Virus record (IMG/VR): IMGVR_UViG_3300032315_000301
Coordinates: 1 to 41,472 of that record
Strand: one strand, 5' to 3'
DNA length: 41,472 bases
Origin: a virus
Position numbers and translations under genes: made by a program. Below the pieces are notes generated by a model, which was not told the origin of the DNA, did not search any database, and saw only the letters and a list, made by a program, of their open reading frames with translations. Below, piece after piece: positions 6,875 to 35,542 of the stretch. Numbering within the stretch: position 1 is the stretch's first letter; each line of letters starts with the position of its first letter.

Positions 6875-7767
6875 TACCTCACCGGCCCTTGGAGGATGCC
6901 GAGGAATGCATCCATGAGATCGGTTGCCGCGCGGTACTCCGCGTAGTCGGGGCGAGACTGCGAAAACTCCTCGCTGAGCTGGGCAGCATCGAAGCCACCC
7001 TCAACCGTCTGGCTCTGGCCAGATGCGTCGGCAGTGATTGTCTGAATGGTCGGATTCTCGCGCTCGCCCTCATTGAGCACCTTGAGAAACTTCTTGCGCT
7101 CTTCCTTGGTCGCTTCGCGCCCCAGGTAGGAGCCCATGGCCTGATTGATCAGGCGCTTGGCGGTGTCGGCATTTGTAAGGTTGACGGTAGTGACGGTAGT
7201 GGTACCGCCGCCCCCGCCACCCCCTCCTCCGTAACTTCCCCCGCCACCCCCGGAGTCATCTCCGGGTGCGCCGAAGTACATGCCTGAAGCAATGTCACCC
7301 AACACTTCCATGGGGTCGCGCATGATTCCCTGCGCATAGAGATTCTGGGACTGAGACACGGCCATCTGGAAGACCTGCGGATAAAGCGAAGGGCGAGACT
7401 TGGAAATGTCGTACCCGGCGAAGGCGAACGCCGCCGCGTCAAGCAGCTTCAACTCAGCCGGAGTGAATCTGTTCCAGCCTGCACCACCATCGACGTAACC
7501 GTAGGCGGGAACCATGGTGTAGGGGTTAGCGGCTCCTCTTCCGCGATCCCCGGGACGGTAGTTACCAAAGGATGGGAGGTACTGCTGTGGAATGCGAATG
7601 GGGATCTGCGGCTCGGGCACGGGCCCATAGGTCCTGTCCGAGTAGAAGTATTGCCCGGAGCTCCCCTGAGATGTCGAACTCGCGGTAGACGCGCTCTGAG
7701 AAGCCAGCCAGCGTGAGTAAGCGTCCGGAGAAAGATTCTCCTTGGCCCATTTCTCGTTTGCTGTCAT
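6874..7767 (-). CDS. probable internal virion protein with poly-glycine linker
   Basis: 297 residues, ATG 7767 after GGGAGG and overlapping the stop of the giant gene. The N-terminus is Ser/Thr-rich, with Pro/Tyr-rich stretches near 50-95. Residues about 172-190 are an almost uninterrupted glycine linker. A helical C-terminal unit follows (AKRLINQAMGSYLGREATKEE, then SEEFSQSRPDYAEYRAA), which resembles short helical units in other phage virion proteins. The linker suggests two independently folded halves. Function is inferred from context only. Confidence 0.5.
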   Translation of the reverse strand: MTANEKWAKENLSPDAYSRWLASQSASTASSTSQGSSGQYFYSDRTYGPVPEPQIPIRIPQQYLPSFGNYRPGDRGRGAANPYTMVPAYGYVDGGAGWNRFTPAELKLLDAAAFAFAGYDISKSRPSLYPQVFQMAVSQSQNLYAQGIMRDPMEVLGDIASGMYFGAPGDDSGGGGGSYGGGGGGGGGTTTVTTVNLTNADTAKRLINQAMGSYLGREATKEERKKFLKVLNEGERENPTIQTITADASGQSQTVEGGFDAAQLSEEFSQSRPDYAEYRAATDLMDAFLGILQGPVR

Positions 7768-10700
7768 CTCGGCGCACCTCCCATTGCCATGTCAGGTTGC
7801 TGTAGGAACTCCCCTTGCAGCACGATGCGATCCGTGGGATCGCCGGGGAGTAGGGTGTCGTAGTCCAGGAACCTGTTGTAGAAGTCAGCGAAGGCGAGAT
7901 TCTCGCGCTTCTTCTGCAATACCCATTCATCCCACATGGCCTTAATGGGCGCGTTAGTGCTTGAGTTGATGTTTAGGCTTGCGTCATCGCCAAGCTCGCG
8001 CTTCTGCTGGATAATCAATTGTCCAATCTCATTGCGCTTCTCGTACCACTCGGCAACGTCCACCCACAGCGGCTCATCGCCATGAGCCGCCATAAACTTG
8101 TCGTCTTCGAGGATGAGCTCTACGTTCTTAAGAACGGTCTTCCACTCGCCCCTGTCGAACAGGTCGCGCTGACGCTCCCACTCGGGGTTTGCCTTGGCAA
8201 TGTCAGCCTCGAGTAGGATCTTCAAGTCCTTGAGGTCCTCGGCTCCTGACTGCTCGTAGCTAGTCAGGCCCCTCTGCTCGAGCATAGCGTCGAGACCGTT
8301 CATCCCGTCTCGGTACAGAATCCAGCCTCGAGCGACCTGACCCTTCTTAATGACGTCGTCCGGATCTCCACCACGCATGAGCGTTGTGGAGTTCTCGAAG
8401 GCTCGGTTCATCTGGTAGGCGTAAACCGGCTGAGAGAACTCAGTTGAGTACGGGGAGGTGATCATGGCAACATGATCGATCTCGCCGCTGTTGGCCAGTG
8501 TGCTTGCCAAAGTCGGGTTCTGCTCCAGGATCTTGTACTCCCCCACTGAAGCACCGACCCCAGCTCGGCCAGAGGCCGACTGGGTTAGGTAGAAGAACGC
8601 CTCGCCGTGCAGATCGAGGAACTCGCGCAGCGCCGCCTGGTAGCCAATGGTCTTGTCATCCGGGACGGGTACACTAAATCGGGCAGCGCTGTCCTGAATC
8701 TGCATGTGCTTGTCGCTGATGCGACGCCACTCTTCCACGTACGGCTGATACTTGGACTGATAGCTTGAGGCGAAGGGAAGAACAAATGACCCGAGGGCGC
8801 GAAGGGCGTAGAGCTCGCGAGCGCGCTTGGTCGCCTCTTCTGGCGAGGGCGGCTCGCCCTGCCTTCCGCCTCGCTCCCAATCGATTGTCATGTCGCGGCG
8901 GATCTCCTCCACCGTGCCTACAAACTCTGCGTCGCTCCACCCAAGCACAGCAGTAAGAGCACGCCGTGCCGTAGTCGGAACGAACTGATCGGCGGCTGCT
9001 GCCAGAATGTTCTTCTCTGCCGTGGGCCTTCCGAATGGGATCGCAGTCTTGGAGATTGCGTCGCCAATCGGTAGGCCGCCGGCCTCGAAGTTTGTAATCG
9101 CATCTGCATAGTCGGGCTTCTGTGCCGCGATCCAACTAACTGGCACGGAGACGATCGGGCCAAAGTTGGTGAGCCATGGGTAGTCGCCCTGAAGGGCGAC
9201 ATTTAGCGACCCCTTCGAGATTCTGATCTGGCCCTTTGTTCCCAGATCCAGACCCGGAATGTTGTTGATCCTGTCGGCAACAGACTGCGGAACGGAGAAC
9301 TGAAGGTAAGCCTCGCCAGGGGCGAACAGTGCCTCGGGCAGTCCAAAGATGCCCCGCTTGGCCTCGATGGGATTGCCATCGCCATCGACAACCATTCCCA
9401 TTGAGTTAGGTGCGTTGTAGATCTGCACGTAGCGCATGAGGTTCTCTGGCCTCTGGGCAAACTCTCTCGTCCAGAAGCGAAGTGCGTTTTCCCATGCTGG
9501 GAAGAATGGAATTAGGAGGCCCATTGCAGCCGCAGGGGTGGAGAGCCGCGAGATCGTGTACGTCGTGTCCCGCGTTGCGCGCAGCGCACCCGTATGGGCC
9601 GAACGACGCATGGCATCAACCTGAGCCGGAGTGAATGACGTGATTCCGTTTCGCTCATACTCATCCACTTGCTGTTGCATGAGCTCGACCCACCGCTTGC
9701 GGTAGAACGGATGGCGAATCAGGTTGTCCTCAGGAATAGTTCCCAATCCAGTCATTGCGCGATTGATGAAACGCCGCCAGAGGTTGCCTATCTGCGCTAG
9801 TTCTTTCTCCTGGATCGTGACTAGATCGTCACGCCAGGCAAGCTTTGCTTGGAGCTGATCTGGCTGGAGCGGTCCCCGTCCAGCCGCGGCCATCAGCTCA
9901 TCATCGGGAAGCCACTGATAGACCTTCTCTCGAAGCTCACCTATGGTCTGCTCAAGAGTGGTGGCGTCATAGATTCCCGTGCGAACACCCTGGAGGAATG
10001 CGTCATCCTGAGTCAGCTCACGGATGAGAGCCTCGTTCTGTGCTGTGATGGCGTCAATGTCGTCAAGAGCCAGTCGAGGCTGCTGAATGATGCGACGCAT
10101 GATTGGATCCTGGCGAATGTTCTCATTCACCAGGGCCGACATGGCCAACCAGTAGCGATCATCGCCTGGCTCGTACTTGACGAAGTTGAACGATCGCTCG
10201 TACTGGGCATAGCGGTTCTGCATGTAGCCCACAATCATGAGATCGTGAAAGCTGCCAGACGAGGCCAAGCTCTGATATTGACCAGACAGTGCTTCATTAG
10301 GATCGAAGACCTCACCTGTCTCCAGCTTTGCCTGCCCCGCGCGCCCAGTGAACTCGATGCGCTCCTCGCCCTCGACTCCACCAGTGGCGACCTTGCGTCT
10401 CCCCTTCGGTCGAAGCCTGTCGAGGGAATCGCCCAGATCCTTCAGGGTTGCCCTGCGCTGCCCAATCGACTTGTTGATAGTCGCGCCAATGCGATCGAGC
10501 TCTCGCATCTTCGCCATGTCGTCGGCATACTCGGGGCTCTTGGCGAGGATCGCAGCCGTGCGATCGTCGACCTCGTCCTTAAGGCCGAGTCGGACGTAGG
10601 CAAGCCCAGTGCCCTCCTGTCCGATCAGCTCTGAGGCTGATACGAGGACGGGCTCCTTGCCCTTAGATGTGGGCAGAAGAATGTGAGTGAAGCTACCGCG

Positions 10701-13700
10701 CTCCATGAAAAGGGCGAGCTTCGCCCTGTCGGAGCGGCTAAGAGTGCCACGGAATACCCGCTTAGCTAGGTCGGGGTCGTGCTCCTGGAGCACCTGTCGG
10801 CTAGTTGCACCCGCACTGAGGTCGATTACGGAGGCGTTTCCTCTCCCCGCGGCAGCAACCTGTCCGGGGATCAGATTGTCCAGGAAGCCTTCATTGGTGG
10901 CGACCATGTCGGGCACGAACAGTGCCCGGAAGCCCTCGACGGTAGAGGGGTCGTCCACAAGGATCTTGCCGTATCCACGTTCCCGAGCGTACTGAGTAAG
11001 CAGCCGCTCAAGCTTGGCGTTCACTGCGCCGAATCCTTCGCCAGGTGCCGGATTAGCCAGTGACATGGAACGAGAGTCGTAGGGAAACTTCTCCATGAGT
11101 TGACGCGTTGCCACCGCCTGGTTGAGCTGACCCTCAAGCCGCCTCATCCGAGTCATTGTCGAGACATACTCAAGGCCCACATCGGAGATTTCATCCAGGC
11201 GAATAAGAGGGACGTCCTTGGCCCACCAGACGTGTACAGGACCCTTGCCGTATGTACTCGTGGTGACGCCGTCATAACCAGCACGACGCATGGCGTCGAT
11301 GATGTCGTAGGTAGGTCCTACGCCCGTTGTGCCAAGGTCGTCTACAACCGAGTAGGCTAGAGTTCGCACCTGGCGCCACACGCCAGCCACGCGTGTGTTG
11401 CCCGCAAGTGTGGACTCTAGACCAGTGCGAATCCTGCTTCCGATTGTTTCACCGCCCGTACCCAGGGAGAACTTCGGATCATCGAGAACCTGGATCAGGT
11501 CTTCCACCTGGGGATTCAGGTCACCTGTAGCACTAATGACGGGAGCATCAACATCTAGCCATGAGTATCCCGCAGGATCAGGAAGCATGTAGACGACTGG
11601 CTCGTAGGGGGCTGCTCCGACATTTGGAGACTGTGCCTGCGCAACAGCCTTCATGACGTGAGCCATGTGGTAGTCCATGGTGACGCCACCATCGCCAGTC
11701 GCCGTGTAGATACCTGGACCATTCAGGAGCTGGATAGTGTTTCCGTCAACAAGAACGTCAGTTGCGATGTCGTCAACTATGACAGCGCCAGAATGCTCCG
11801 GGAATCCGGAGTTTCCGTAATTTGACTCATCGTTAAGTATCGCCTCAAGTCGAGTGCGAAGATCTCCAGTGCTACCGAGGTCCCGCGAGATCCGGGATTG
11901 CCTGCGAACCAGCTTACCTAGCTCGGCGCTGGTGATGACAAGCTTGTTCTTAGCGGCCCACTCCATGAAATCATCAGGAAGTCGATCGCTGTTGTCCCGT
12001 ATCCATTTACTTACGGCCAATGCCCTGGCGGCTTGCGGATTTGATTCCACGACGCTAAGAAAGGCGACAATGTCACTCTGGGCCACCGGAGCATCAGGGC
12101 CCAGTATCCGCGTAAGCGCAGACGTAAGTTCGGCTGAGAGTTCCTCTACCTCTGATTGTGAATACGCCCCTGGCTGATCCGCTTGTCGATTGAGTCTCTG
12201 GATCTCAATGAAGCGATCCATCACCGAGCGAACAGTTGAGATGTCCCTGGATACGTTCAGCACTTCAGCCTGAACATTGGTGCGTAGATCTAGCACTCCC
12301 CCGTACACATCCGCCTTGGCGTAGCGCGGGTTGACGCTCTTGGGCACTGCAACGATGGAGCCCGATAGGAACTCGTCGCTGGAGATGTCCTCGAAAGTGC
12401 TGGATCGTATGACCTTGAAGCGCCCGTCTCGGTCGATGCGACCGATCCGGTAGTCGGCCTTGGCAAGCTGACGCAGCCGACGTACGTAGGCTTGCTGAAG
12501 CATCTCAGCGTGCTCGACTGCGGCGGCATCGTCAACCCAGGTGCCCTTGCTCTCATCCCAGTAGGCCGCAACGAACTCGTCATAGTTGCGGAGCATGGTG
12601 GGCGTCATGAAGTCCCTGGGCGAGAGCTCGTCGGACATGCCGCCAATCTCGACCCCCTCGGGTCCCATCATGGAGCGGGTGAGTCCCTCGGCATCAGCAA
12701 CCCCCGCACCCGTTGCCGGGTCGGGCTCAAGAAGTCCACGTGCAGTGACGGAGCTTGTCGCGTTCGGGTCGAAAATGAGTGTGTCTGCCGTGTCAAGCAT
12801 GCGGACCTGCTGCTCGGTTAGGTCCTCTGAGATCTGCGTGTAGACCGGAGACTCCATGGCCTCCATGGAGGCGCGGCGCCTACGAAGGAACTCCTGCTCG
12901 GCACCCCTACGCGCCTGCTTGCGGCGCCTGGCCATTTGCTTGGCCAGCTTTCTCCGCTCCTCGCGATTGAGCTTGAGGTCGGCAAGATCACGATCCTGCT
13001 GCTGGCGCATCTTTGCCATGTTGGTTCGAATCTTGCGCAGACCCCTGCGCTTGACCACCATGTTGCGAAGGCGGTTAGTGCCACCCGCAATACGATCGCC
13101 AGAGTTGAGGAAGAAGTTCTTTGAGCTAGTTCCCACGTGTCCCGTGGCGGGGATCTCGCCAAAGGAGGCCAGCGTGCGGAGGTAACCCTCGGCAATGTTG
13201 CGCTGGGTGTAGCCCAGGCGCAGTAGGACCAGGGGACGCCACACGTAGTCGATGGCGGTGAGAAGCTTCTCGGCCCCGGCTCGCCCCTTGCGGGCCCCCC
13301 ATCCGGATCGCTCAATGCGAATCGAGTCTTGCAGCCACTTGAAGTCCATGAGCGTGTAGCCGTTGCGCTGTGTGGCCAGAGTCATCTCGTCAAGAACAAC
13401 GGTCTCACCGTTGTCGATTACCCACTTATGATTGGCAAGATGACCGCGAACAAAGGAGCGTCGGGCAATGTACTTCTTGGCAATTTCCTGCATGGCTGCT
13501 GGCGACTCACCAAGAGCGAATGCCATGGCTTCGACCATCTCAAGTTCGAAGCGCTCAGCAAATGCAGCTTTTGCTGCTGGGGTCGAGAGCGCGGCGTCCT
13601 GAGCCTCCGACAGGAGGCGCGTCCGAAACTCCTCGACGGTTTCGGAGACGGTGTCGCCGTTGGGCAGGCGTCGAGTAATCAGCCTGCCTTCGCCAGTCTT

Positions 13701-15452
13701 CTTTGCTGCCCCGCGAAGGAATGGTGCCGTTTCAAGGGCAGCCCGGAACTCACGCATGAACTCCACGTGGTCCTGAAAGTTCAGTACACCCGTCTGGCGA
13801 TGCTTGCCCAGATAATCCAGTCCACTGCGCAACGTGACGAAGCGGATACCGCGGTTCATTCCAGGGAGTTTGATGACGCTGTGCTCGTAGGCAGAGCCAG
13901 TGAATCGCTCCATGCGACGCTGAGCCTTAGCCTGCATGCCACGCGCGGAGCGCTTGCTGTACACACCAGCACGCTTGTCATAGCGAAACGTGCGCCCCCT
14001 GCCGCCACGAGTTGCCCTGCCGATAACGGGACTCAGGGATACCTCGTCACCGAATCGACCTGTAGTAAAAGCAGAAATAGTGTCAGCCTCGGCAACATCA
14101 TCTTTAAGGGACTTGACAGCACCCTCTGCAACGTCAGCCAGGGCGTCGTAGTGGTCGAGATTCTGTGACACGTCTGCACCGAATATGGCTGCGTAGTTGT
14201 CACCCATGTCGGTGAAGTTGTCGATGTCCCGGTCGGCACCCTTGCGAATGTTCCAGCGCAGAGTGTCGAGCTCTTCCTTGGCGCCCAGGAGGTTGTCGTA
14301 AAGGTCTAGGCGCTGTGCCTTGAGTCTGGCCGCAGATCCGTAGTCACCCAGCATTGCGAGGAAGGCGTCAGCCGCCTGCTCCTTGGAGTCAAACTTGGAG
14401 CCAATGATCGAAGCGACTAGGGCCGGATTGTCGGAATCCAGCACGATCGGATGATGTGCAGCCTCTTCAGGGGTCATGCGATAAATCTCATCAATGAGCT
14501 GACCCTCGGCGGTGACCTCAACTCCAGCGTTGTGCGTCACAACGCGCGCCTTAAATTCGCCCGCATCAATGGTTCCTCGAGCGCCACCCGTGGAGAGAAC
14601 CTGCTGGGTAGCTTTGCGGTAACCACCCATAATACCCTTGGATACAAGGACGTCGATTCCCACGGCGATGGCGATAGTTGCATCTGCCGTACCAGTGATC
14701 CAGCGACCCAGACCTTGGTTGAACGCCGAGTCCATATCGTTTTCGTCAAACGGATCGAAGTCTGAGTGCAGACCCATCAACCACGAGCGCAGCTTGCGCT
14801 CGTTGGTGGGATCAGCGAGACGCGCCGCATTGTCAGCCTCGATATATGCGTCAAGTTTCTTCTGCATGTCCAGACCGACAATGCTGTTGATCCACTTGAG
14901 GCGATCAGCCCAGGCCACACCAATGGCTTGACCAGGGGTGATTTCCGCTTCCCAGACTTTCCCGTAGTAGTCCCAGACGTCACCCAGGGTTACGCCATCC
15001 GTGGGGTCGGCGTCGGTTCGTGTAACCCATGTTGGGTTATTGACAAGCATCGTGGTGCCAGCGACAGCAGTATTGAATGCCCTGAAGGGGGCATCGACAA
15101 ACTGCATGAACTGCTCTCGGGATTGATCTGGCGTCTGGTCACTGATCCCCTCAATGACCTGATTATTTGCGCCTACTGCGTCGAAGTAGGGGCGAAAGCC
15201 CCGAGTGCCCGTGTATGCCTGACGCTGACGAACCATGGGGCTCGTCATGTAGTCGTACGCCTTGACGTTTCTCTGAAACTCGACGTACTCGGCAGATCTG
15301 CCGTCGGCCAGTGCTGGGGTGTAGGTGGGCTGGTTCTGCGCGTCAATGCGCGCCTGAGTATCGTACTGAGCTTGCCGCTGTTGGGCCTGCTGCTGCTGGG
15401 AGTAGATGTAGCTACTGCTCATCGAGTTACGGAAGTCGGAGAACTTGCTCAC
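7764..15452 (-). CDS. giant virion protein, probably ejected with the genome
   Basis: 2562 residues from the GTG at 15452, chosen because GGAGG lies about 8 bases upstream. The N-terminus is Gln-rich and helical. Residues about 830-890 are strongly basic and coiled-coil like (RRKLAKQMARRRKQARRGAE). Residues about 1180-1420 end in MRRAGYDGVTTSTYGKGP and VWWAKDVPLIRLDEI, a pattern recalling ADP-ribosyltransferase-like domains in phage proteins. A hydrophobic AAAMGLLIPFFPAWENALRFW-type segment occurs near residue 1970. Size and single-gene format resemble the giant genes reported in some Microbacterium podoviruses. I see no lysozyme or HExxH protease motif. Confidence 0.7.
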   Translation of the reverse strand: MSKFSDFRNSMSSSYIYSQQQQAQQRQAQYDTQARIDAQNQPTYTPALADGRSAEYVEFQRNVKAYDYMTSPMVRQRQAYTGTRGFRPYFDAVGANNQVIEGISDQTPDQSREQFMQFVDAPFRAFNTAVAGTTMLVNNPTWVTRTDADPTDGVTLGDVWDYYGKVWEAEITPGQAIGVAWADRLKWINSIVGLDMQKKLDAYIEADNAARLADPTNERKLRSWLMGLHSDFDPFDENDMDSAFNQGLGRWITGTADATIAIAVGIDVLVSKGIMGGYRKATQQVLSTGGARGTIDAGEFKARVVTHNAGVEVTAEGQLIDEIYRMTPEEAAHHPIVLDSDNPALVASIIGSKFDSKEQAADAFLAMLGDYGSAARLKAQRLDLYDNLLGAKEELDTLRWNIRKGADRDIDNFTDMGDNYAAIFGADVSQNLDHYDALADVAEGAVKSLKDDVAEADTISAFTTGRFGDEVSLSPVIGRATRGGRGRTFRYDKRAGVYSKRSARGMQAKAQRRMERFTGSAYEHSVIKLPGMNRGIRFVTLRSGLDYLGKHRQTGVLNFQDHVEFMREFRAALETAPFLRGAAKKTGEGRLITRRLPNGDTVSETVEEFRTRLLSEAQDAALSTPAAKAAFAERFELEMVEAMAFALGESPAAMQEIAKKYIARRSFVRGHLANHKWVIDNGETVVLDEMTLATQRNGYTLMDFKWLQDSIRIERSGWGARKGRAGAEKLLTAIDYVWRPLVLLRLGYTQRNIAEGYLRTLASFGEIPATGHVGTSSKNFFLNSGDRIAGGTNRLRNMVVKRRGLRKIRTNMAKMRQQQDRDLADLKLNREERRKLAKQMARRRKQARRGAEQEFLRRRRASMEAMESPVYTQISEDLTEQQVRMLDTADTLIFDPNATSSVTARGLLEPDPATGAGVADAEGLTRSMMGPEGVEIGGMSDELSPRDFMTPTMLRNYDEFVAAYWDESKGTWVDDAAAVEHAEMLQQAYVRRLRQLAKADYRIGRIDRDGRFKVIRSSTFEDISSDEFLSGSIVAVPKSVNPRYAKADVYGGVLDLRTNVQAEVLNVSRDISTVRSVMDRFIEIQRLNRQADQPGAYSQSEVEELSAELTSALTRILGPDAPVAQSDIVAFLSVVESNPQAARALAVSKWIRDNSDRLPDDFMEWAAKNKLVITSAELGKLVRRQSRISRDLGSTGDLRTRLEAILNDESNYGNSGFPEHSGAVIVDDIATDVLVDGNTIQLLNGPGIYTATGDGGVTMDYHMAHVMKAVAQAQSPNVGAAPYEPVVYMLPDPAGYSWLDVDAPVISATGDLNPQVEDLIQVLDDPKFSLGTGGETIGSRIRTGLESTLAGNTRVAGVWRQVRTLAYSVVDDLGTTGVGPTYDIIDAMRRAGYDGVTTSTYGKGPVHVWWAKDVPLIRLDEISDVGLEYVSTMTRMRRLEGQLNQAVATRQLMEKFPYDSRSMSLANPAPGEGFGAVNAKLERLLTQYARERGYGKILVDDPSTVEGFRALFVPDMVATNEGFLDNLIPGQVAAAGRGNASVIDLSAGATSRQVLQEHDPDLAKRVFRGTLSRSDRAKLALFMERGSFTHILLPTSKGKEPVLVSASELIGQEGTGLAYVRLGLKDEVDDRTAAILAKSPEYADDMAKMRELDRIGATINKSIGQRRATLKDLGDSLDRLRPKGRRKVATGGVEGEERIEFTGRAGQAKLETGEVFDPNEALSGQYQSLASSGSFHDLMIVGYMQNRYAQYERSFNFVKYEPGDDRYWLAMSALVNENIRQDPIMRRIIQQPRLALDDIDAITAQNEALIRELTQDDAFLQGVRTGIYDATTLEQTIGELREKVYQWLPDDELMAAAGRGPLQPDQLQAKLAWRDDLVTIQEKELAQIGNLWRRFINRAMTGLGTIPEDNLIRHPFYRKRWVELMQQQVDEYERNGITSFTPAQVDAMRRSAHTGALRATRDTTYTISRLSTPAAAMGLLIPFFPAWENALRFWTREFAQRPENLMRYVQIYNAPNSMGMVVDGDGNPIEAKRGIFGLPEALFAPGEAYLQFSVPQSVADRINNIPGLDLGTKGQIRISKGSLNVALQGDYPWLTNFGPIVSVPVSWIAAQKPDYADAITNFEAGGLPIGDAISKTAIPFGRPTAEKNILAAAADQFVPTTARRALTAVLGWSDAEFVGTVEEIRRDMTIDWERGGRQGEPPSPEEATKRARELYALRALGSFVLPFASSYQSKYQPYVEEWRRISDKHMQIQDSAARFSVPVPDDKTIGYQAALREFLDLHGEAFFYLTQSASGRAGVGASVGEYKILEQNPTLASTLANSGEIDHVAMITSPYSTEFSQPVYAYQMNRAFENSTTLMRGGDPDDVIKKGQVARGWILYRDGMNGLDAMLEQRGLTSYEQSGAEDLKDLKILLEADIAKANPEWERQRDLFDRGEWKTVLKNVELILEDDKFMAAHGDEPLWVDVAEWYEKRNEIGQLIIQQKRELGDDASLNINSSTNAPIKAMWDEWVLQKKRENLAFADFYNRFLDYDTLLPGDPTDRIVLQGEFLQQPDMAMGGAPR

Positions 15453-15607
15453 TGTCCGTCCTCCTTGGCGATGAGATACAGAAACTCGTCGAACTGCTCG
15501 ACGCTTTCCCACCCGGACGTGGCTAGACCCCACACAATTGGTGAGTTTTCCAGGCCGAGTGCATTCACCCCGGAAGCAATCAGCTTCTCAAGAGTGGGTG
15601 GTGTCAC
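15449..15607 (-). CDS. small acidic virion-operon protein, function unknown
   Basis: 52 residues, starting at a GTG whose bases overlap the preceding stop (GTGA) and ending in the same kind of overlap with the giant gene, so it is tightly coupled on both sides. The sequence begins VTPPTLEKLIASGVNALGLE and ends acidic (EFLYLIAKEDGQ), with two Trp residues in the middle. No family is recognised. It may be a head or tail completion factor or a translational coupler. Confidence 0.6.
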   Translation of the reverse strand: MTPPTLEKLIASGVNALGLENSPIVWGLATSGWESVEQFDEFLYLIAKEDGQ

Positions 15608-22067: not shown

Positions 22068-22337
22068 TGATCGGTTCCTTCCGTGATGGGCCGGGGTGGA
22101 TCCCCGACCGCTGACACCATGGTGACATGCCAACACAGAATGCATACACATCGGGCATCGAGCCCGCCTCCCACGCGCATGCGCGCGCGAGCGGGGACGG
22201 GTGTGTAGGTGACGGGTACCGTGCAGGCACCGCCTGCGCGCACGGAGCTGGCCCCATTTCGAGGCTTGTCAAGTACCGAATTTCCCTTGCAAACAAAGGG
22301 ATTTCTGGCATTGCAGGATGCTTGCTGGAAACTTGCT

Positions 22338-22346
22338 GCTATCCTG
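22338..22346 (+). promoter_or_regulatory. candidate extended minus-10 element or repressor site
   Basis: TGCTATCCT matches a TGnTAnnnT extended minus-10 and sits about 88 bases before the amidoligase start. The core GCTATCC recurs at three other gene boundaries, so it could equally be a repeated protein-binding site. Confidence 0.3.
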
Positions 22347-22351
22347 GTATC

Positions 22352-22388
22352 GCCCCATCGGGAGTCCTCCCCCGGCTCCCGGTGGGGC
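22352..22388 (+). promoter_or_regulatory. leader stem-loop before the amidoligase gene
   Basis: A 13-bp stem (GCCCCATCGGGAG / CTCCCGGTGGGGC, one G-U) with an 11-nt loop lies 45 bases before the start codon and would be in the mRNA leader. There is no T run, so attenuation or mRNA protection is likelier than simple termination. Confidence 0.5.
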
Positions 22389-22433
22389 ATCTCACATCTG
22401 ATACGCAACATACACACACGATTGGAGATTGCG

Positions 22434-23594
22434 ATGACTGACGTGCATGTGCCTCCCGATGAGGCGACCGAGGTTGAGCCGTGCTCATGTGACTGGGCGT
22501 CCTTGTATGCACACACCACGATATGCAGTGACGATCCTCACCCTGACTTCCCCGACCTGTGCTACGCGCACGGTCGTGACGCACGCACGTGTGACTGGTG
22601 CGGCCGTACCATGCACCGCCACGACACGTACTACTGCAACCATCCCGCCGCCAACATATGCGAGTCGTGCTACTACGACTTCGTCGCAAACTGCGAACAC
22701 TGCGGTGAATACTACAGCACGGACGACTACAGCGGGTGCCCGCACGACTGCGCGGACGACTACAGCGGGTGCCCGCACGACTGCGGCCGGGATGCTCGGT
22801 TGCTCAACTACGGGTACAAGCCCTACCCCGTGTTCCACGACGTCGACGGCCAAGTCTCACCCGTGCCCGGCGTGGTGTACATGGGCGTGGAGTTGGAGAT
22901 GGAGTCCAACGATCACGTCGTAAACGACTGTGTGGACGTGATCGACCGGCACCTCGGTTCGTTCGCGTACTGCAAGGAGGATGGTTCGCTCTATCACGGG
23001 CTCGAAATGGTGACGCACCCGTTCACCCTAGAGTACGCACACAAGCCCAACCTGTGGTCAGTCCTCCACGAACTGCGTCGCATGGGCTGCCGGTCGTGGA
23101 ACACCACGACCTGCGGTATGCACATCCACGTCTCACGCACAGCGTTCGACGGCTCGGCTCACCTGTTCCGCTTCACCCAACTCGTGCTCAAGAACGAGCC
23201 TGCGTGCACGTCCTTCGCCGGTCGGAAGAACGACACGTACGCATCGTTCCGTGATGGCTACCAGCCAGGCTTCCTCGCCAAGGTCATCAAGGGTCGTGAG
23301 CACGGCTCACGTGGAGCGATCAACCTACAGAACGGCTCCACCGTAGAGGTGCGCATGTTCCGTGGGAGCCTGCGCATCAACCGATTGCTCGCCAACCTGG
23401 AGTTCGTACACGCAGCCGTCGAGTACACCCGTGAGCTGACGGTTCCGCAGGTCGCTACTGGCGGCCTGTCATGGCGGGCATTTGCAACATGGATCACCGA
23501 CTATCGCAACACGTACTCGAACCTGTTCGAGTACCTCTCGCTCGACCCCGCCACCCCCAACACCAGCACACACGTAGACATCACGTCGTTCTAA
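22434..23594 (+). CDS. amidoligase-family enzyme with N-terminal zinc-binding region
   Basis: 386 residues from ATG 22434 (GGAG 8 bases upstream). Residues 17-117 are Cys/His-rich (CDWCGRTM, ICESCYYDFVANCEHC) and contain a perfect internal duplication. The glutamine-synthetase-like COOH-NH2 ligase part spans about 146-340: YMGVELEME (149-157), KEDGSL (181-186), LEMVTHPF, CGMHIHVS (227-234), AINLQN and VEVRMFRGS (304-312), the family's metal, ATP and substrate motifs. Such enzymes ligate amines to carboxylates using ATP. The adjacent amidotransferase suggests a joint pathway; the substrate is unknown. Confidence 0.85.
   Translation: MTDVHVPPDEATEVEPCSCDWASLYAHTTICSDDPHPDFPDLCYAHGRDARTCDWCGRTMHRHDTYYCNHPAANICESCYYDFVANCEHCGEYYSTDDYSGCPHDCADDYSGCPHDCGRDARLLNYGYKPYPVFHDVDGQVSPVPGVVYMGVELEMESNDHVVNDCVDVIDRHLGSFAYCKEDGSLYHGLEMVTHPFTLEYAHKPNLWSVLHELRRMGCRSWNTTTCGMHIHVSRTAFDGSAHLFRFTQLVLKNEPACTSFAGRKNDTYASFRDGYQPGFLAKVIKGREHGSRGAINLQNGSTVEVRMFRGSLRINRLLANLEFVHAAVEYTRELTVPQVATGGLSWRAFATWITDYRNTYSNLFEYLSLDPATPNTSTHVDITSF
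22720..22785 (+). repeat. exact 33-bp tandem duplication inside the amidoligase gene
   Basis: Two identical 33-base units (22720-22752 and 22753-22785) encode a repeated DDYSGCPHDC segment, in frame, adding two Cys and one His. This looks recent because not a single base differs. Confidence 0.9.
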
Positions 23595-23606: not shown

Positions 23607-24461
23607 ATGTGCTTGCTCACACTCACACTGCCCAATGCAACACCCAACTACGAGCGCCTGTACGTGGCGGCAGACAACAACCCTGACGGGTTCGGCTTCG
23701 CCGTACACACAGGCGATGACCTGCTCGTCGTGCGTTCGATGGATGCCGACTGGATCATCGACAAGTACGCAGAAGCGCGCGCCGACTATCACGACAGGCC
23801 CTCGATCTTCCACCTACGCCTGGCTACACACGGCGCAGTCGACCTGACCAACTGCCATCCGTTCTACACGGACAAGCACAAGCACACCGTGCTCGCACAC
23901 AACGGCGTCCTGCCAGTCGATCTGCCCAAGGGTGAGACTCGATCCGACACACGTTGGTTCGCGGAGGAATACTTCCCCCGTCACGTGAGCATGTCGCAAC
24001 TCAACTCACGTAAGGCTCGACGCAAGTTGCGCAAGACGATCGGGTCGTACAACAAGATCGCCCTGCTCACGACCGAGGCTGACTCCGATGCGCAGTGGCG
24101 CATCATCAACGAGGCAGCCGGCCATTGGCACAACGGCACGTGGTACAGCAACGACTCCTACAACGTGCGCATGTACTCATACCCCAAGTCGTGGTCCTTC
24201 GGCAAGCCGTCGGCCCTCGACGACGAGGACATCCTGCTCGACGACGACCCCACGCAGGATGTACACGAGCTGTGCATGACGTGCGGATCGGTGCTGTCCG
24301 ACGACGAGGTTCACATGTGGGGAGAGTGTGCAATCTGCGGATCGTGCGTCATGTGCAGCGAGCCGCTCGGCTACTGCATGTGCTACCACGCACCCGAGCG
24401 TGAGCACAACACGCGCTACTCGTACGACAACTCCTTCTACCAGGAGGTGTTGTCCCGATGA
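23607..24461 (+). CDS. class II glutamine amidotransferase-like protein with C-terminal cysteine cluster
   Basis: 284 residues from ATG 23607 after AAGGAGATCAGATC. After Met removal Cys2 would be the N-terminal nucleophile (MCLLTL). Further class II (Ntn-hydrolase) signatures are NNPDGFGFA (24-32), FHLRLATHG (68-76), LAHNGV (96-101) and SDTRW (113-117). Residues about 225-270 add CMTCG, CAICGSCVMC and YCMCYH, a zinc-ribbon-like module. It would release ammonia from glutamine for a partner, plausibly the preceding amidoligase. No synthase domain is fused, so it needs a separate acceptor enzyme. Confidence 0.82.
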   Translation: MCLLTLTLPNATPNYERLYVAADNNPDGFGFAVHTGDDLLVVRSMDADWIIDKYAEARADYHDRPSIFHLRLATHGAVDLTNCHPFYTDKHKHTVLAHNGVLPVDLPKGETRSDTRWFAEEYFPRHVSMSQLNSRKARRKLRKTIGSYNKIALLTTEADSDAQWRIINEAAGHWHNGTWYSNDSYNVRMYSYPKSWSFGKPSALDDEDILLDDDPTQDVHELCMTCGSVLSDDEVHMWGECAICGSCVMCSEPLGYCMCYHAPEREHNTRYSYDNSFYQEVLSR

Positions 24462-26002: not shown

Positions 26003-27028
26003 ATGGCACACGAACTCGAGAGCATGGGCGACACGTACAGTTTCTACGCCCTGCGCACACCCGGCTGGCACAAACTCGGCACCGTTGTCGAGGAGGCAGT
26101 CGACATTGACCAGGCCCTACGCCTGGCCAACATGGAGTGGGACTTCTCACTCGAACCCATCACCACCACACACGTCAGCCTCAATGGCGTGACCACCATC
26201 GAGGTGCCCAACAAGCGGGCCGTCGTGCGCACACGCCAGAGTGACGGCGACATCCGTGCGCTTGGGGTTGTGGGTGACCGCTTCGTCGTTCACACACCCC
26301 GTGAGATGTGGTCGTTCATCGACGGTCTCGTGGCCGGAGGTGCCGAGATCGAGACGCTCGGCTCGCTCGGGATCGGTGAGCGTGCGTTCATCACGCTCAA
26401 GCTCCCGTCGCACGTGATGGTGGGCGGTCGGGATCAGACCGACCTGTACCTGTTCTGCTCCACCGCCTTCGATGGATCGCAGGCCACACGCGCTGACCTC
26501 ACGGGAGTGCGTGTCGTGTGCGCCAACACTTGGCGTGCAGGTCAGCAGGCCAGCCAGGCTCACCTGTCCATCCGTCACACCTCATCGCTCGATTCGCGTG
26601 CGGACATTGCACGCAAGATCCTCGACATCGCCGTCGACTACGAGCAGTTCCTCGCTGACCTGGGCAACCGTCTGTACGGCACGAGCCTGCGTCACGAGGA
26701 CGCAGCACAGGTCGTGTCTGCGCTGTTCCCGTTCCCCGAGGAGATCGACCCGACCAAGGTCAAGTACGAGGATCTCTCGGCTGGTGCCAAGCGCACCGTC
26801 ACCCGTGTGCAGGAGACACGGGGCCGGGTGTTCTCCATGTACACAGACTCCCCTGTTCGTGCCGAGACGGGCACGGCATGGGGTCTCTACCAGGCAGTCA
26901 CGGAGTGGGCTGACTGGGCATCCCCCGTGCGTGGCGAGGATCGTGACAACGCCCGCGCAGAGAAGGTCCTCCTCGGCGAGGTGGACACCATCAAGGACCG
27001 GGCCCTCGAGTTGCTACTCGTGGGCTGA
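26003..27028 (+). CDS. DUF932 / phage-plasmid-like protein (TIGR03299 type)
   Basis: 341 residues with AAAGGACACACC upstream. The start TYSFYALRTPGWHKLGTVVE carries the W-H-x-L-G signature. Further landmarks are LGVVGDRFVVHTPREMW, FITLKLPSHVMVGGRD, VRVVCANTWRAG and HTSSLDSRADIARKIL, typical of this family found in phages and plasmids. Function is not established; members are often linked to DNA metabolism or accessory regions. Complete length for the family. Confidence 0.85.
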   Translation: MAHELESMGDTYSFYALRTPGWHKLGTVVEEAVDIDQALRLANMEWDFSLEPITTTHVSLNGVTTIEVPNKRAVVRTRQSDGDIRALGVVGDRFVVHTPREMWSFIDGLVAGGAEIETLGSLGIGERAFITLKLPSHVMVGGRDQTDLYLFCSTAFDGSQATRADLTGVRVVCANTWRAGQQASQAHLSIRHTSSLDSRADIARKILDIAVDYEQFLADLGNRLYGTSLRHEDAAQVVSALFPFPEEIDPTKVKYEDLSAGAKRTVTRVQETRGRVFSMYTDSPVRAETGTAWGLYQAVTEWADWASPVRGEDRDNARAEKVLLGEVDTIKDRALELLLVG

Positions 27029-31269: not shown

Positions 31270-31439
31270 GGCACGCTGGGAATGACGGCGACGGAGTCCA
31301 GTCCAACCGAGTGCTGGCACCCACAGGAACTGGAGCACTGACCATGCGCTGCCTCGGCGGCAGTGAGGTAAGCACCATGTCCATACCTACGCCACATCTT
31401 ATTGTACTCGGCCCCACGCAGGCAGGTCTCGCATATCAT
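31266..31439 (-). CDS. 57-residue zinc-ribbon-like protein
   Basis: ATG overlaps the WhiB stop (ATGA) and its own stop overlaps the next start. MICETCLRGAEYNKMWRRYG carries C-x2-C; later CSSSCGCQH supplies three more Cys and a His. Two metal-binding clusters around a short helix fit a small zinc protein. Function is unknown; coupling to WhiB and the nuclease suggests coordinated expression. Confidence 0.62.
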   Translation of the reverse strand: MICETCLRGAEYNKMWRRYGHGAYLTAAEAAHGQCSSSCGCQHSVGLDSVAVIPSVP

Positions 31440-31702
31440 GACGCCCCCGACAGCGGCTCGAACTTAATCCCAAGGGACTTGCGCAAGGAGATGCGCTCGC
31501 GTCGGGTCGTGCCACCCCACCAGCCGTACTCCTCATGATGCAGTGCCCAGCTACGGCACTGCACGAGTACGGGACAGTGGCTGCACGTGTCGACAAGCAG
31601 GGCGCGATGCATGAGGATTCCATTCCCGGCAGGCTCTTCAAAGAAGGGCTCGCTTCCCACCTGAGTGCACGGCTCATTCCCGGTGAAGTTCGGGTACTTC
31701 AT
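31436..31702 (-). CDS. WhiB-family Fe-S transcriptional regulator
   Basis: 88 residues; ATG 31702 chosen for GGGAG upstream over a TTG two codons earlier. The four WhiB cysteines are C12 (PCTQVGSEPFF), C40, C43 and C49 (DTCSHCPVLVQCR), and the beta-turn signature YGWWGGTT spans 59-66, followed by a basic RRERISLRKSL stretch for DNA contact. WhiB proteins are confined to actinobacteria and their phages and bind a 4Fe-4S cluster and sigma-A. It likely tunes host transcription or excludes other phages. Confidence 0.93.
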   Translation of the reverse strand: MKYPNFTGNEPCTQVGSEPFFEEPAGNGILMHRALLVDTCSHCPVLVQCRSWALHHEEYGWWGGTTRRERISLRKSLGIKFEPLSGAS

Positions 31703-31889
31703 TGACAATCACTCCCATTCTCTTGCGGTACTCGCCCGTTACCATGTTGCTAATGTGCGAGGTAAATGAGTGGAGTTCATCCACGGCCTCGTCATTGAGG
31801 AGCTCTAAAGTGTGCTTGGTAATTACAGTGCTTATTCGCGCAAGCTCCTTGGCCCACCAGATCTCGACTATCTTGAACCGGCCCGCCAC
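31674..31889 (-). CDS. small helical protein, function unknown
   Basis: 71 residues from GTG 31889 (AGAAGGGAAACTT upstream); a longer frame exists but its added residues look like a shadow of the preceding gene. VAGRFKIVEIWWAKELARIS, then a mostly helical stretch (ELLNDEAVDELHSFTSHISN). It overlaps both neighbours, so it is translationally coupled. The WAKELARI segment recalls WDKLARI in the 29593-29970 protein, so the two may be distantly related. Confidence 0.55.
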   Translation of the reverse strand: MAGRFKIVEIWWAKELARISTVITKHTLELLNDEAVDELHSFTSHISNMVTGEYRKRMGVIVNEVPELHRE

Positions 31890-32116
31890 AAGTTTCCCTT
31901 CTCGTGGAGCTCGGCAATACGTGGCACCAGCCACGCCAGGATCTCCCTGCATGTACAAGTGGTACAGCCACAGAACGGCATGCCGCTTTCTGTGGCGTAG
32001 AAGTAGCCGTCGTCGCTGTCGTACATTGCGGAACTCAACTGGTCGAAGTAGTGGACCATGCTGGTCTCCACAATGTGCATGGCGTCGGAGTCGAAGTCCC
32101 AGTCGTCTAGTGCCAC
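31868..32116 (-). CDS. small acidic phage protein, function unknown
   Basis: 82 residues from GTG 32116, which lies inside the end of the helicase gene and has GAGGCG upstream. Acidic start (LDDWDFDSDAMHIVETSMVH), then YDSDDGYFYATESGMPFCGC and CTTCTCREILAWLVPRIAEL. The Cys cluster CGCTTCTC may bind metal. No family is recognised. Confidence 0.55.
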   Translation of the reverse strand: MALDDWDFDSDAMHIVETSMVHYFDQLSSAMYDSDDGYFYATESGMPFCGCTTCTCREILAWLVPRIAELHEKGNLWRAGSR

Positions 32117-32928
32117 TGTCGCCTCGTGTGGGCCATTTGCATCTCCTGCATAGAGGAGTACAGCGTCATCCGTGGTGGGTCCACGTAGACCGTCTCGAAG
32201 TCCTCGGCATTGGCATCGTGCATGCCATGCCTGTTCTTGACGCAGGCCACTCGCAGAACGCCAGCGGCTGGCTCCATAGCCAGCGAGATGATCTGCTCGG
32301 CAAGCTGAGACACCTTGCCCTGGATAGCCCGTCGGGGTGCGGGGAAGTGGGCCTTTGAGTCGTTCTCGCTCACATGATGCAGGATCAGCACGCAGCTCTC
32401 CGTCTTGCGAGCGAGGACGTGCATGAACGACATGGTTTCCCTCATGCCAGCCCATTCGGAGTCAGACATGCTCATGACATTCATGAGGTTGTCGACCACG
32501 ATCAACTCGGGATAGGCGCCGAATACTTCCTCGTACGCCTGCACCTCTAGGTCAATGTCCTCAAGGCTGGGACTGGGATCAAACGCGAAGCGAACGACGG
32601 ACAGTCGTGACGCCGCCTCGCGCAGCTTATCCTTGTCGTTGAGTACGAGATTCTCTACCTCATCGGTAGTGAGTTGCATCTCGATCGCAAGTGCGCGCAG
32701 GAACGTGGTGTGGGGGTCGGTGTCTGCGGACACGAACAGACACCGAACCCCCGATGCGACCGCATACCAAAGCGAGAACAAGGACTTCCCGCCGTTGGGC
32801 TGGGCCACAGCCATAGTCACCTGGCCTCGGCGCAGGCGAATGCCACGGTGCGTCAGAGTGGGCAGGATCTCCGGAAGCACAGCTCCCGATGGACCCTGGT
32901 GCTCAAGCACCTGTCCCAGTGTGCGCAC
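32107..32928 (-). CDS. RecA-fold replicative helicase (DnaB/RepA-like)
   Basis: 273 residues from GTG 32928, overlapping the preceding stop by one base. Walker A is AQPNGGKS (42-49), Walker B is ELIVVDN (141-147), and CVLILHHVSEND gives the sensor region. DnaB-like features are IQGKVSQLAEQIISLAMEPA and a C-terminal ACVKNRHG. Without an N-terminal DnaG-binding domain it is short for DnaB and nearer RepA-type or phage RecA-fold helicases. It presumably works with the primase. Confidence 0.82.
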   Translation of the reverse strand: MRTLGQVLEHQGPSGAVLPEILPTLTHRGIRLRRGQVTMAVAQPNGGKSLFSLWYAVASGVRCLFVSADTDPHTTFLRALAIEMQLTTDEVENLVLNDKDKLREAASRLSVVRFAFDPSPSLEDIDLEVQAYEEVFGAYPELIVVDNLMNVMSMSDSEWAGMRETMSFMHVLARKTESCVLILHHVSENDSKAHFPAPRRAIQGKVSQLAEQIISLAMEPAAGVLRVACVKNRHGMHDANAEDFETVYVDPPRMTLYSSMQEMQMAHTRRQWH

Positions 32929-33380
32929 TACTCATTGACCCAGATCTGCTTGGCCTTAGCTGCACCCGGCTTGCAGGGCCGAGGGCCCTCTGCCGGATCA
33001 ACCCAGACCTTCTTCTCCGTGCCGGCCTTGAGCGTGACGTACTTGAGGATGTACTTACCCCGACCGTCCGGCAGATCCGGGGCATCAGGGTGTCCGTAGG
33101 CGAACTTCTTTCCCCACTTATCGGACTCGATAGCGAGAGAGGTGTCGCCACTCGCAAGCTCGCTGACGACTACCGCGGTAGTCCCCTGCGGTGACATGGT
33201 GGCCGTGACCACGGAGCCGCCGACAATGAGGTCGCCTAGGGACACGATGTCCTGGATGTTGTCCCGAACCCAGGCAAGGTTCATTTCGAACTCAATGCTG
33301 TCATCGCCCTGGATGTTGAGCATGTGTTCCTTGCGGTCAGGCCCCCACTTGTAGTTGGCCTGGATAGCGAATGTTGTCAC
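32928..33380 (-). CDS. conserved phage protein in the replication operon, function unknown
   Basis: 150 residues; GTG 33380 overlaps the stop of the nuclease gene (GTGA), and the longer frame upstream is a shadow. VTTFAIQANYKWGPDRKEHM, then SIEFEMNLAWVRDNIQDIVS, beta-rich SVVTATMSPQGTTAVVVSEL, and a basic Pro/Lys-rich end (AEGPRPCKPGAAKAKQIWVN). Position between nuclease and helicase would suit a single-strand-binding or recombination partner; no signature confirms it. Confidence 0.5.
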   Translation of the reverse strand: MTTFAIQANYKWGPDRKEHMLNIQGDDSIEFEMNLAWVRDNIQDIVSLGDLIVGGSVVTATMSPQGTTAVVVSELASGDTSLAIESDKWGKKFAYGHPDAPDLPDGRGKYILKYVTLKAGTEKKVWVDPAEGPRPCKPGAAKAKQIWVNE

Positions 33381-34057
33381 TTGCGAACTCCAAACTGTGG
33401 ATGGTCGGGGTCGTAGAGATGAGCGTTGGGGCCGCTGCGTGCATAGCACGCATGGGCGACGTCACAGGTGGAGCAATCCCTGCCGATGTTCGGAAGGAAC
33501 GGGCCCCCACTGGTACGAACCTGATCGAGCTGCGAGAACACTCGATCGAAGTAGTCGTCCGAGTAGCGATCGAGCGACTCGGGTGCGGAGAGCTTCCCCT
33601 CACGCGTCATGAAGTAGGCGCCAAGCTTGGGCCGCACTCCGTACTGACGCTCGATGGCCTGCGCATATAGGCACAACTGAAAGAAAGTGTTCGGGACCTT
33701 GGCCCCTGTCTTGTAGTCGACCAGGAGGAGGTCGGGGGTCTCGTACATGCAGTCGGCAAAGCCGAGCACTTCGACCCCCCCGAACTTGGCGCGGATCTCA
33801 AACTCGATGGCGGGCTGATCGCCCACGGTGGCGATACGCCACCCGGCCCTGATCTGCTCATCCATCCAGGTCGTGTAAGCCGACACCTGATCGATGCCCG
33901 TGCGCTCCCAGTAGTCCAAGTCCTGGCCTCCCGGCCACTCCTTAGTCTTGCGGCCTGCACTCCTCCACTCGCTCTCTGGGTGGGCAGTGGACCCCTGCGT
34001 CTCAAGCAGCGCAGCGGACCACGACTCACCCCAGATGCGGGGAAGGTCGAGATTCAC
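33377..34057 (-). CDS. Cas4/RecB-like exonuclease, C-terminal part of a split protein
   Basis: 226 residues from GTG 34057, overlapping the preceding stop (GTGA). Contains the PD-(D/E)XK core FADCMYETPDLLLVDYKTG (100-118) with D102, D114 and K116, the QLCLYAQA helix (127-134) and the cluster CSTCDVAHAC (195-204) that supplies three cysteines. The usual N-terminal segment of the family, with the first cysteine, is absent here but is encoded separately at 34413-34589. It would trim DNA ends in recombination. Both parts are likely needed. Confidence 0.82.
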   Translation of the reverse strand: MNLDLPRIWGESWSAALLETQGSTAHPESEWRSAGRKTKEWPGGQDLDYWERTGIDQVSAYTTWMDEQIRAGWRIATVGDQPAIEFEIRAKFGGVEVLGFADCMYETPDLLLVDYKTGAKVPNTFFQLCLYAQAIERQYGVRPKLGAYFMTREGKLSAPESLDRYSDDYFDRVFSQLDQVRTSGGPFLPNIGRDCSTCDVAHACYARSGPNAHLYDPDHPQFGVRK

Positions 34058-34398
34058 CGAAACATCACACCTTCGATGGGCTCACCGTTGCGAGCCAGCA
34101 GGCTGATCGGAGCCTCGAGCTCAGTGACAGAGGAGTCATCGAGAGTGTCCGCTCGGTAGGCATGAAGCACATCCAGCCAGCCGAAGCCGGGGTCCTTGCG
34201 TGTATCAATGACGAACGGCATTCCGGTGGCGTCAAGTACGACGTCACCGACGCGGAGGTTCGAGCGGTTAGGCAGATCAGCCAGGGGGTCTGCCTCGATG
34301 CTGACGACTGCGGACTCGGGGATCGGAGTGTCCGAGCCAATCGGGTAGAGATGGTTGAGGGTGCGCTCAACGCGCACCGTGACGATGTGTGTAGACAT
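34054..34398 (-). CDS. protein encoded between the two nuclease parts, function unknown
   Basis: 114 residues; ATG 34398 chosen because GAGAGGA lies just upstream. MSTHIVTVRVERTLNHLYPI begins a beta-rich protein with VVSIEADPLADLPNRSNLRV, GDVVLDATGMPFVIDTRKDP and a C-terminal EAPISLLARNGEPIEGVM. No homing-endonuclease, intein or nuclease motif is seen, so the gene is not an obvious selfish invader. Its stop overlaps the start of the C-terminal nuclease part. Confidence 0.65.
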   Translation of the reverse strand: MSTHIVTVRVERTLNHLYPIGSDTPIPESAVVSIEADPLADLPNRSNLRVGDVVLDATGMPFVIDTRKDPGFGWLDVLHAYRADTLDDSSVTELEAPISLLARNGEPIEGVMFR

Positions 34399-34412
34399 GA
34401 GTCCTCTCACGG

Positions 34413-34589
34413 TTATCGCTGGTTCTCGTAGATGTGTCGATTGATTGACTCGATTGCCATGTGAACTGCCTTTCCTCCGACGAGCCAGACGGAGGGAACT
34501 TGGGGTGCGTGCTGGAGGCGCTTGAGCTGGTAGGACTTGCCGCACCGGGTGTAATCACCGAACTGCGAGTTAGACAGATGCGTTGCCAT
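34413..34589 (-). CDS. Cas4/RecB-like exonuclease, N-terminal part of a split protein
   Basis: 58 residues, ATG 34589 to TAA 34413. The pattern LSNSQFGDYTRCGKSYQLKR, then VWLVGGKAVHMAIESINRHI is the N-terminal signature of Cas4/RecB-like phage exonucleases, including the first cysteine (C16) and the G-x-A-x-H motif. It ends just where the family normally continues into the part found at 33377-34057. The ribosome site is weak (GGGGGGATAG upstream). Found by translating the strand directly. Confidence 0.8.
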   Translation of the reverse strand: MATHLSNSQFGDYTRCGKSYQLKRLQHAPQVPSVWLVGGKAVHMAIESINRHIYENQR

Positions 34590-34607: not shown

Positions 34608-34820
34608 CTATGAGGTTTGTTTCTCGAGGACATGAAGGTCGCGACCCCAGTCGGCGTCGAACCAGGAGGCCCGTACCGTGCAGTAGCCGCGCTTGACGAG
34701 CGCGCGGTACACGTCCCCTAGCTCCTGAGGCGTTGCCTCAGGACCCTGGGCAACCACCGCTTCACCCGACTCTTCGTCAATGTGTGCATAGATCACGAGG
34801 TTGTCGATCACGATCTCCAC
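34608..34820 (-). CDS. small protein at the head of the replication operon
   Basis: 70 residues from GTG 34820, with a G run (CGGGGGG) at plausible spacing; a TTG one codon earlier is an alternative. VEIVIDNLVIYAHIDEESGE, then AVVAQGPEATPQELGDVYRA and an Arg/Trp/Asp-rich end. Alpha-beta composition; no family is recognised. First gene after the candidate promoter. Confidence 0.6.
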   Translation of the reverse strand: MEIVIDNLVIYAHIDEESGEAVVAQGPEATPQELGDVYRALVKRGYCTVRASWFDADWGRDLHVLEKQTS

Positions 34821-34823
34821 CAA

Positions 34824-35110: not shown

Positions 35111-35542
35111 CTAGGGGACCTTGGGGTTTCGGATCATCCCCTTGTCGATGCCTTTGCGGCGCTTGATGTAGAAAAATCCCGCCTCCGTGTCCAGGTCGTA
35201 GTGGACGACGGCCCCCTCAGCATCCAGGCGCTCCTGCCAGGAGCGGTATCTCTCGGCCAGATCGTCGGACACTTTCTGCCCAGCATCAATCCGGGCTCCC
35301 GCTCGCAGCATTTGTGCGGCATAGTGGCCGTTGTGCTCGATCTTGATTCGCTCCCATGGCAAAGCGTCGGAGTACCTCACCCGACTAGTGAGCCCAGCCC
35401 TCGACAGGGCTGCGCTCACCGTCGATCGCCCTACCTTGACCCCGGTCGTCTTGTAGACGTACTCGGCAATCTCCGCGTGGGTCATTGTGCGAGCCAGCTC
35501 AGCGAGCTTGGAATCGCTTGGAAGGTACCTCGGAGCAGCCAT
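35111..35542 (-). CDS. helix-turn-helix DNA-binding protein (candidate lysogeny regulator)
   Basis: 143 residues; I start at ATG 35542, because the open frame continues far upstream only as an antisense shadow of the integrase. Residues about 15-50 (LAELARTMTHAEIAEYVYKT, then GVKVGRSTVSAALSRAGL) form a clear helix-turn-helix. The rest is helical (WERIKIEHNGHYAAQMLRAG) with AVVHYDLDTEAGFFYIKRRK near the end. Similar proteins are common in actinobacterial phages. Divergent placement next to the integrase suits a repressor or switch role; that is inference. Confidence 0.75.
   Translation of the reverse strand: MAAPRYLPSDSKLAELARTMTHAEIAEYVYKTTGVKVGRSTVSAALSRAGLTSRVRYSDALPWERIKIEHNGHYAAQMLRAGARIDAGQKVSDDLAERYRSWQERLDAEGAVVHYDLDTEAGFFYIKRRKGIDKGMIRNPKVP

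Follow-up and report, generated by a model that had tools for sequence, protein, structure and literature searches.

The question raised by this locus is whether a phage nuclease gene interrupted by a second, complete gene still specifies a working enzyme. The locus lies in a 41,472-base virus record, analysed over its whole length and referred to here as the window, where all of the pieces are on the minus strand and follow one another in transcription order as a 58-codon ORF (positions 34413–34589), a 114-codon ORF (34054–34398) and a 226-codon ORF (33377–34057). A first-pass annotation had assigned the outer two ORFs to one Cas4/RecB-like exonuclease, and the coordinates, lengths and residues that it gave for both pieces are reproduced here, with C16 in the N-terminal (N) piece and D102, D114-x-K116 and three C-terminal cysteines in the C-terminal (C) piece. 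Likewise, the 114-residue gene between them is complete and has the good translation signals ascribed to it: AGAGGA precedes its ATG, which follows the stop of the N piece after a gap of 14 nt, and its stop overlaps the GTG start of the C piece by 4 nt (GTGA). The C piece shares a second GTGA overlap with the start of the next gene downstream, which encodes a small protein of about 150 aa (32928–33380, minus strand). The N and C pieces are in different frames in the window, and no sigma-70-like promoter was found between them, although this is a weak test.

The surroundings of the locus, all on the minus strand, comprise a 71-aa ORF upstream in the same orientation as the split nuclease (34608–34823), a repressor-like gene further upstream (35111–35539; PHROG_3929, E=5e-24) and, on the downstream side, a DnaB-like replicative helicase (32107–32928; PHROG_243, E=2e-64). 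The helicase is also a neighbour of the intact exonuclease in phages, as is the repressor-like gene in several of them.

The C piece matches Pfam PDDEXK_1 (E=2e-11) and the exonuclease family PHROG_1870 (E=9e-31), and the N piece matches the exonuclease family PHROG_69 (E=3e-6); the Pfam match of the N piece is weak alone (0.013), and N pieces of relatives match PDDEXK_1 with E=6e-7 (L002) and 3e-9 (L013). By these profile matches, the split ORFs are a predicted Cas4/RecB-type exonuclease encoded in two pieces. Alignment with intact actinophage exonucleases places the break, and with it the end of the N piece, in the loop that follows helix 1, which varies in length and reads GRTMSLEE in mycobacteriophages, and the two pieces together amount to 284 aa, compared with 263–318 aa in the intact relatives, such that the whole protein is covered and nothing is lost. 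Besides C16, the N piece contains the motif-I residues G39-x-A41-x-H43 as well as E47, all invariant in seven aligned sequences that include intact relatives, and we take H43 to be the metal-binding His of RecB motif I. Neither piece has the whole site, with H43 in the N piece and D102, D114-x-K116, Q127 and Y131 (Q127xxxY131) in the C piece, which also carries E85. The four cluster cysteines are all present, distributed over the two ORFs as one N-terminal (C16) and three C-terminal (C195-x2-C198-x5-C204). The first-pass annotation had recognized that the cysteines are separated and had overlooked H43 and E47 in the N piece; because these residues reside there together with the first cluster cysteine, the active site and the cluster are both divided. 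The complement of parts corresponds to the published features of Cas4, namely one N-terminal and three C-terminal cluster cysteines, motifs I, II and III and QhXXY (PMC4176176).

The same division is found in other environmental phages. A scan with the middle gene returned a locus (L002) with the same three genes in the same order, at 47, 40 and 42% identity, and the pattern VDYKTGxxVP led to six more related loci (L013, L018, L021, L022, L024 and L027); those of them with both pieces are broken at the same place, with a different intervening gene. With wider patterns, at least 97 loci containing both pieces were obtained from IMG/VR, on at least 96 further contigs, and all 97 listed are split and none intact, a ratio that is valid for the VDYKTG group and not for all phage Cas4-like proteins, since the search patterns derive from split sequences and the intact isolates have RDxKTG or LDLKTG instead. 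In place of the single polypeptide of Cas4/RecB-like (PDDEXK_1) exonucleases, the window and 96 further contigs have two ORFs separated by stops, and the retention of this arrangement in at least 96 other contigs excludes chance. The search of related phages that had been proposed as a check therefore finds the same loop broken throughout, and the contrary case, an intact single gene in close relatives beside a decayed copy here, is seen in none of the listed VDYKTG-type relatives with both pieces. Scans of viral contigs with the C piece or the helicase of the window as a single protein gave no match, and scans with two-sequence alignments returned L002 again and no other relative. The pattern WRxAGRxTK matched 21 loci in GTDB contigs, none of which is a relative by tblastn.

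Ninety-two of the split loci are complete and represent 71 distinct proteins, 22 at <90% identity. Of 15 positions checked across these loci, 14 show no variation, and A41 has one exception; the residues kept in 92/92 are C16, H43, E47, E85, D102, D114, K116, Q127, Y131, C195, C198 and C204. Stops and starts in the split loci overlap or nearly abut. Analysis of dN/dS (Nei-Gojobori, with overlaps trimmed) yields 0.04–0.09, 0.04–0.11 and 0.07–0.11 for the N, middle and C ORFs, respectively, within the L031/L033/L034 group, and 0.08, 0.09 and 0.08 for L013 compared with L027. For the window against L002, the ratio is 0.26–0.45 with dS saturated, the divergence being too great for a firm value. 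On these ratios, the N, middle and C ORFs are all under purifying selection. Indeed, the suggestion that the arrangement is maintained rather than decaying is borne out by the retention of the catalytic and cysteine positions and by the dN/dS of 0.04–0.11 for the three ORFs in the most informative relatives.

What occupies the break differs between contigs. Among the matches listed, and counted by contig, the slot holds a ribbon gene in 92, a gene of the window's type in two (L002 and L076) and nothing in two (L068 and L093). An ORF script gave fewer ribbon genes, the start apparently lying further inside the N gene in some loci. The ribbon gene has about 59 codons and four cysteines, arranged as C-x1-2-CG and CxxC, and is unrelated to the middle gene of the window (type A, encoding the GSDTPIPE protein); no homology between the two families was found, with an hhalign probability of 0.3%. 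The middle protein of the window matches no Pfam or PHROG family, and searches of INPHARED phages and GTDB contigs with its gene were likewise negative; its AlphaFold prediction, at a pLDDT of 44, is unreliable. Neither family matched an endonuclease, and by this measure neither is a homing endonuclease. In L076 (5165–5299, minus strand), the GSDTPIPE gene is shortened to 45 codons and retains the N-terminal half only. In L068 and L093 (minus strand), the stop of the N piece and the start of the C piece overlap directly in ATGAGTAA, at about oriented positions 1145 and 2844. Judged from its exchange and its absence, the intervening gene is dispensable for the split arrangement itself, and its origin from two unrelated families, shortened or missing in places, makes a passenger or accessory role more likely than that of an essential subunit.

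In one relative (L031), the N and C pieces are in one frame with a single TGA between them, and its table-4 read-through, comprising the N piece, a 53-residue junk linker and the C piece, was modelled as a single chain from an alignment of 11 rows. The fused model has a pTM of 0.62, with helix 1 of the N piece at a pLDDT of about 85, the core mostly at 75–90 and both cysteine regions below 50. A Foldseek search of the PDB with this model returned the Cas4-family protein ACE1 (E 8e-7), followed by Dna2, Cas4 I-C, MGME1, AddAB and SSO0001. The model, with its confidently placed N helix, therefore supports the expectation that the small part completes a Cas4-type nuclease fold, while the cluster geometry and the true two-chain interface are beyond what a fused relative can address.

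Intact forms of the nuclease are found in isolates. Over 1,000 records of isolates give a match, nearly all of them, among the matches listed, being annotated as exonuclease or Cas4 exonuclease, and twelve isolate proteins from Mycobacterium, Gordonia, Rhodococcus, Thermobifida and Propionibacterium phages are all encoded by single genes. These actinophage Cas4-family (RecB-like) exonucleases resemble the split form in their residues, in the order of their parts and in their DnaB (often also repressor) neighbourhood, but are one polypeptide of 263–318 aa with no gene in the loop, and share about 24–36% identity with the C piece of the window. In a tree without the long-branched Propionibacterium phage proteins, a single branch (support 100/99) separates the split forms from the intact ones, and the window's middle-gene type branches near the base of the split forms; when these proteins are included, the best tree requires two changes between intact and split instead of one, although the data do not reject a single split clade (AU p 0.22). 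The best reading of these comparisons is that the fission of the nuclease is ancient and maintained. The window also contains a gene for a WhiB-family Fe-S regulator (31436–31708, minus strand; PF02467, E 3.5e-12), which, together with the nearest isolates, points to an actinobacterial host.

Elsewhere in the window, adjacent plus-strand genes encode a putative amidoligase (22209–23594; PF12224, E 7e-5) and a class-II glutamine amidotransferase (23607–24461; PF13230, E 1e-7), possibly a peptide- or cell-wall-modifying pair, and the amidoligase-like ORF contains the direct repeat DDYSGCPHDC. A DUF932 protein (26003–27028; PF06067, E 5.5e-43) is encoded within the plus-strand gene block, and a 2,589-codon ORF in the structural half (7764–15533, minus strand) has no Pfam match.

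How the two pieces should be understood depends on several alternatives. That an insertion broke the gene and left the pieces as remnants would agree with the usual meaning of split genes, which suggest loss, as well as with the less tight ratio for the window against L002 and with the derivation of the sequences from single metagenomic contigs. Against this, the catalytic and cluster positions are invariant over 92 loci, the break is the same in at least 96 contigs, and selection on both pieces in the informative pairs refutes decay in the relatives, leaving inactivation very improbable. Two subunits or an inactivated enzyme had been the choice offered by the first-pass annotation, and with none of the listed close relatives intact, the former is supported and the latter falls away. 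We give still less credence to a single polypeptide made through an intron, an intein or programmed frameshifting. The shared frame of the N and C pieces in several groups would suit it, but no Rfam intron was found and there is no room for one, the frames differ in the window, and the middle ORF is complete and in another frame, with in-frame stops between; because an unrelated complete ORF separates the pieces, frameshift fusion is impossible in the window's type and in the ribbon type.

A C piece that is sufficient alone, with the N piece acting as, for example, a regulator or decoy, would have the catalytic D, D-x-K and QxxxY all at its disposal. Some Cas4 proteins tolerate loss of the cluster, and cluster-dead Pcal_0546 and SSO1391 still cleave DNA (PMC4176176), such that cleavage could survive loss of the N cysteine, a point that counts against the two-part reading. 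The retention of the motif-I His, E47 and the cluster cysteine of the N piece in 92/92 loci is, however, as expected if the N piece completes the site, and we regard self-sufficiency of the C piece as improbable. Less easily dismissed, although still unlikely, is an obligate hetero-complex in which the cluster and the active site lie across the subunit boundary and the exchangeable middle protein serves as third subunit, assembly factor or regulator. The middle gene is placed between and coupled to both halves, the slot is filled in 94 of the 96 other contigs among the matches listed, and purifying selection acts on the ribbon gene; yet the occupants of the slot are two unrelated genes, one of which is cut to 45 codons in L076, and L068 and L093 have none.

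We therefore favour, with a probability of about 0.8, a maintained ancient fission that has given rise to a two-subunit Cas4-like nuclease, with a slot for exchangeable genes between its parts. That the same break is preserved in almost 100 further contigs of environmental phages implies a functional enzyme of two parts with an active site common to both, and the Fe-S cluster is probably common to both as well. An ancestral actinophage nuclease gene would have been interrupted in the loop that follows helix 1, in the simplest case by a single event, and never rejoined, leaving helix 1, the first cluster cysteine and the motif-I His and Glu on the N piece, and the rest of the RecB-type core with the three C-terminal cysteines on the C piece. 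The overlapping or abutting stops and starts suggest that both would be translated separately, in a coupled manner, from one message and assemble close to the site of synthesis. The pieces would then re-assemble in trans into one Cas4-like nuclease, for which we infer exonuclease activity and in which one chain would supply a single cluster cysteine and its partner the other three. The intervening gene, expressed together with the halves and open to exchange, would be a passenger or an accessory factor that the split does not need. The DnaB neighbourhood leads us to infer that the nuclease takes part in replication or recombination.

Cas4-type nucleases are regarded as enzymes of one chain with an Fe-S cluster as the staple, and a natural, widespread version with that staple and the active site on two chains would directly test what the cluster does, which could be to serve as an inter-subunit clasp. 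In addition, the break appears to act as a stable slot for the exchange of unrelated small genes, with no homing endonuclease found. Automatic annotation is likely to overlook the short N piece and to label the C piece a truncated exonuclease, and in the literature searched, of which coverage was partial, we found no earlier report of a split phage Cas4 or exonuclease.

The CRISPR Cas4 proteins SSO0001 and Pcal_0546 and the Cas4-family protein ACE1 have RecB-type motifs and one N-terminal plus three C-terminal cysteines, as here, and the CxxC-x5-C spacing of Pcal_0546 (PMC4176176) is that of the window's C piece. Unlike the split form, these proteins are single chains, and the likeness implies no CRISPR or Argonaute context here. 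Among T4-like phages, Aeh1 NrdA is split by mobE and fully functional, the gp43A and gp43B of phage 25 (split also in 44RR) co-purify with polymerase activity, and the T4 topoisomerase gene 60 is split by mobA (PMC2988022). As in these genes in pieces, a contiguous phage gene is divided here by an intervening sequence, with re-assembly established for theirs and predicted for ours. Their inserts, however, are homing endonucleases or untranslated sequence, whereas the slot described here contains either of two unrelated small genes without an endonuclease signature, or nothing, and the split extends throughout a diverse environmental group and affects a predicted Fe-S nuclease.
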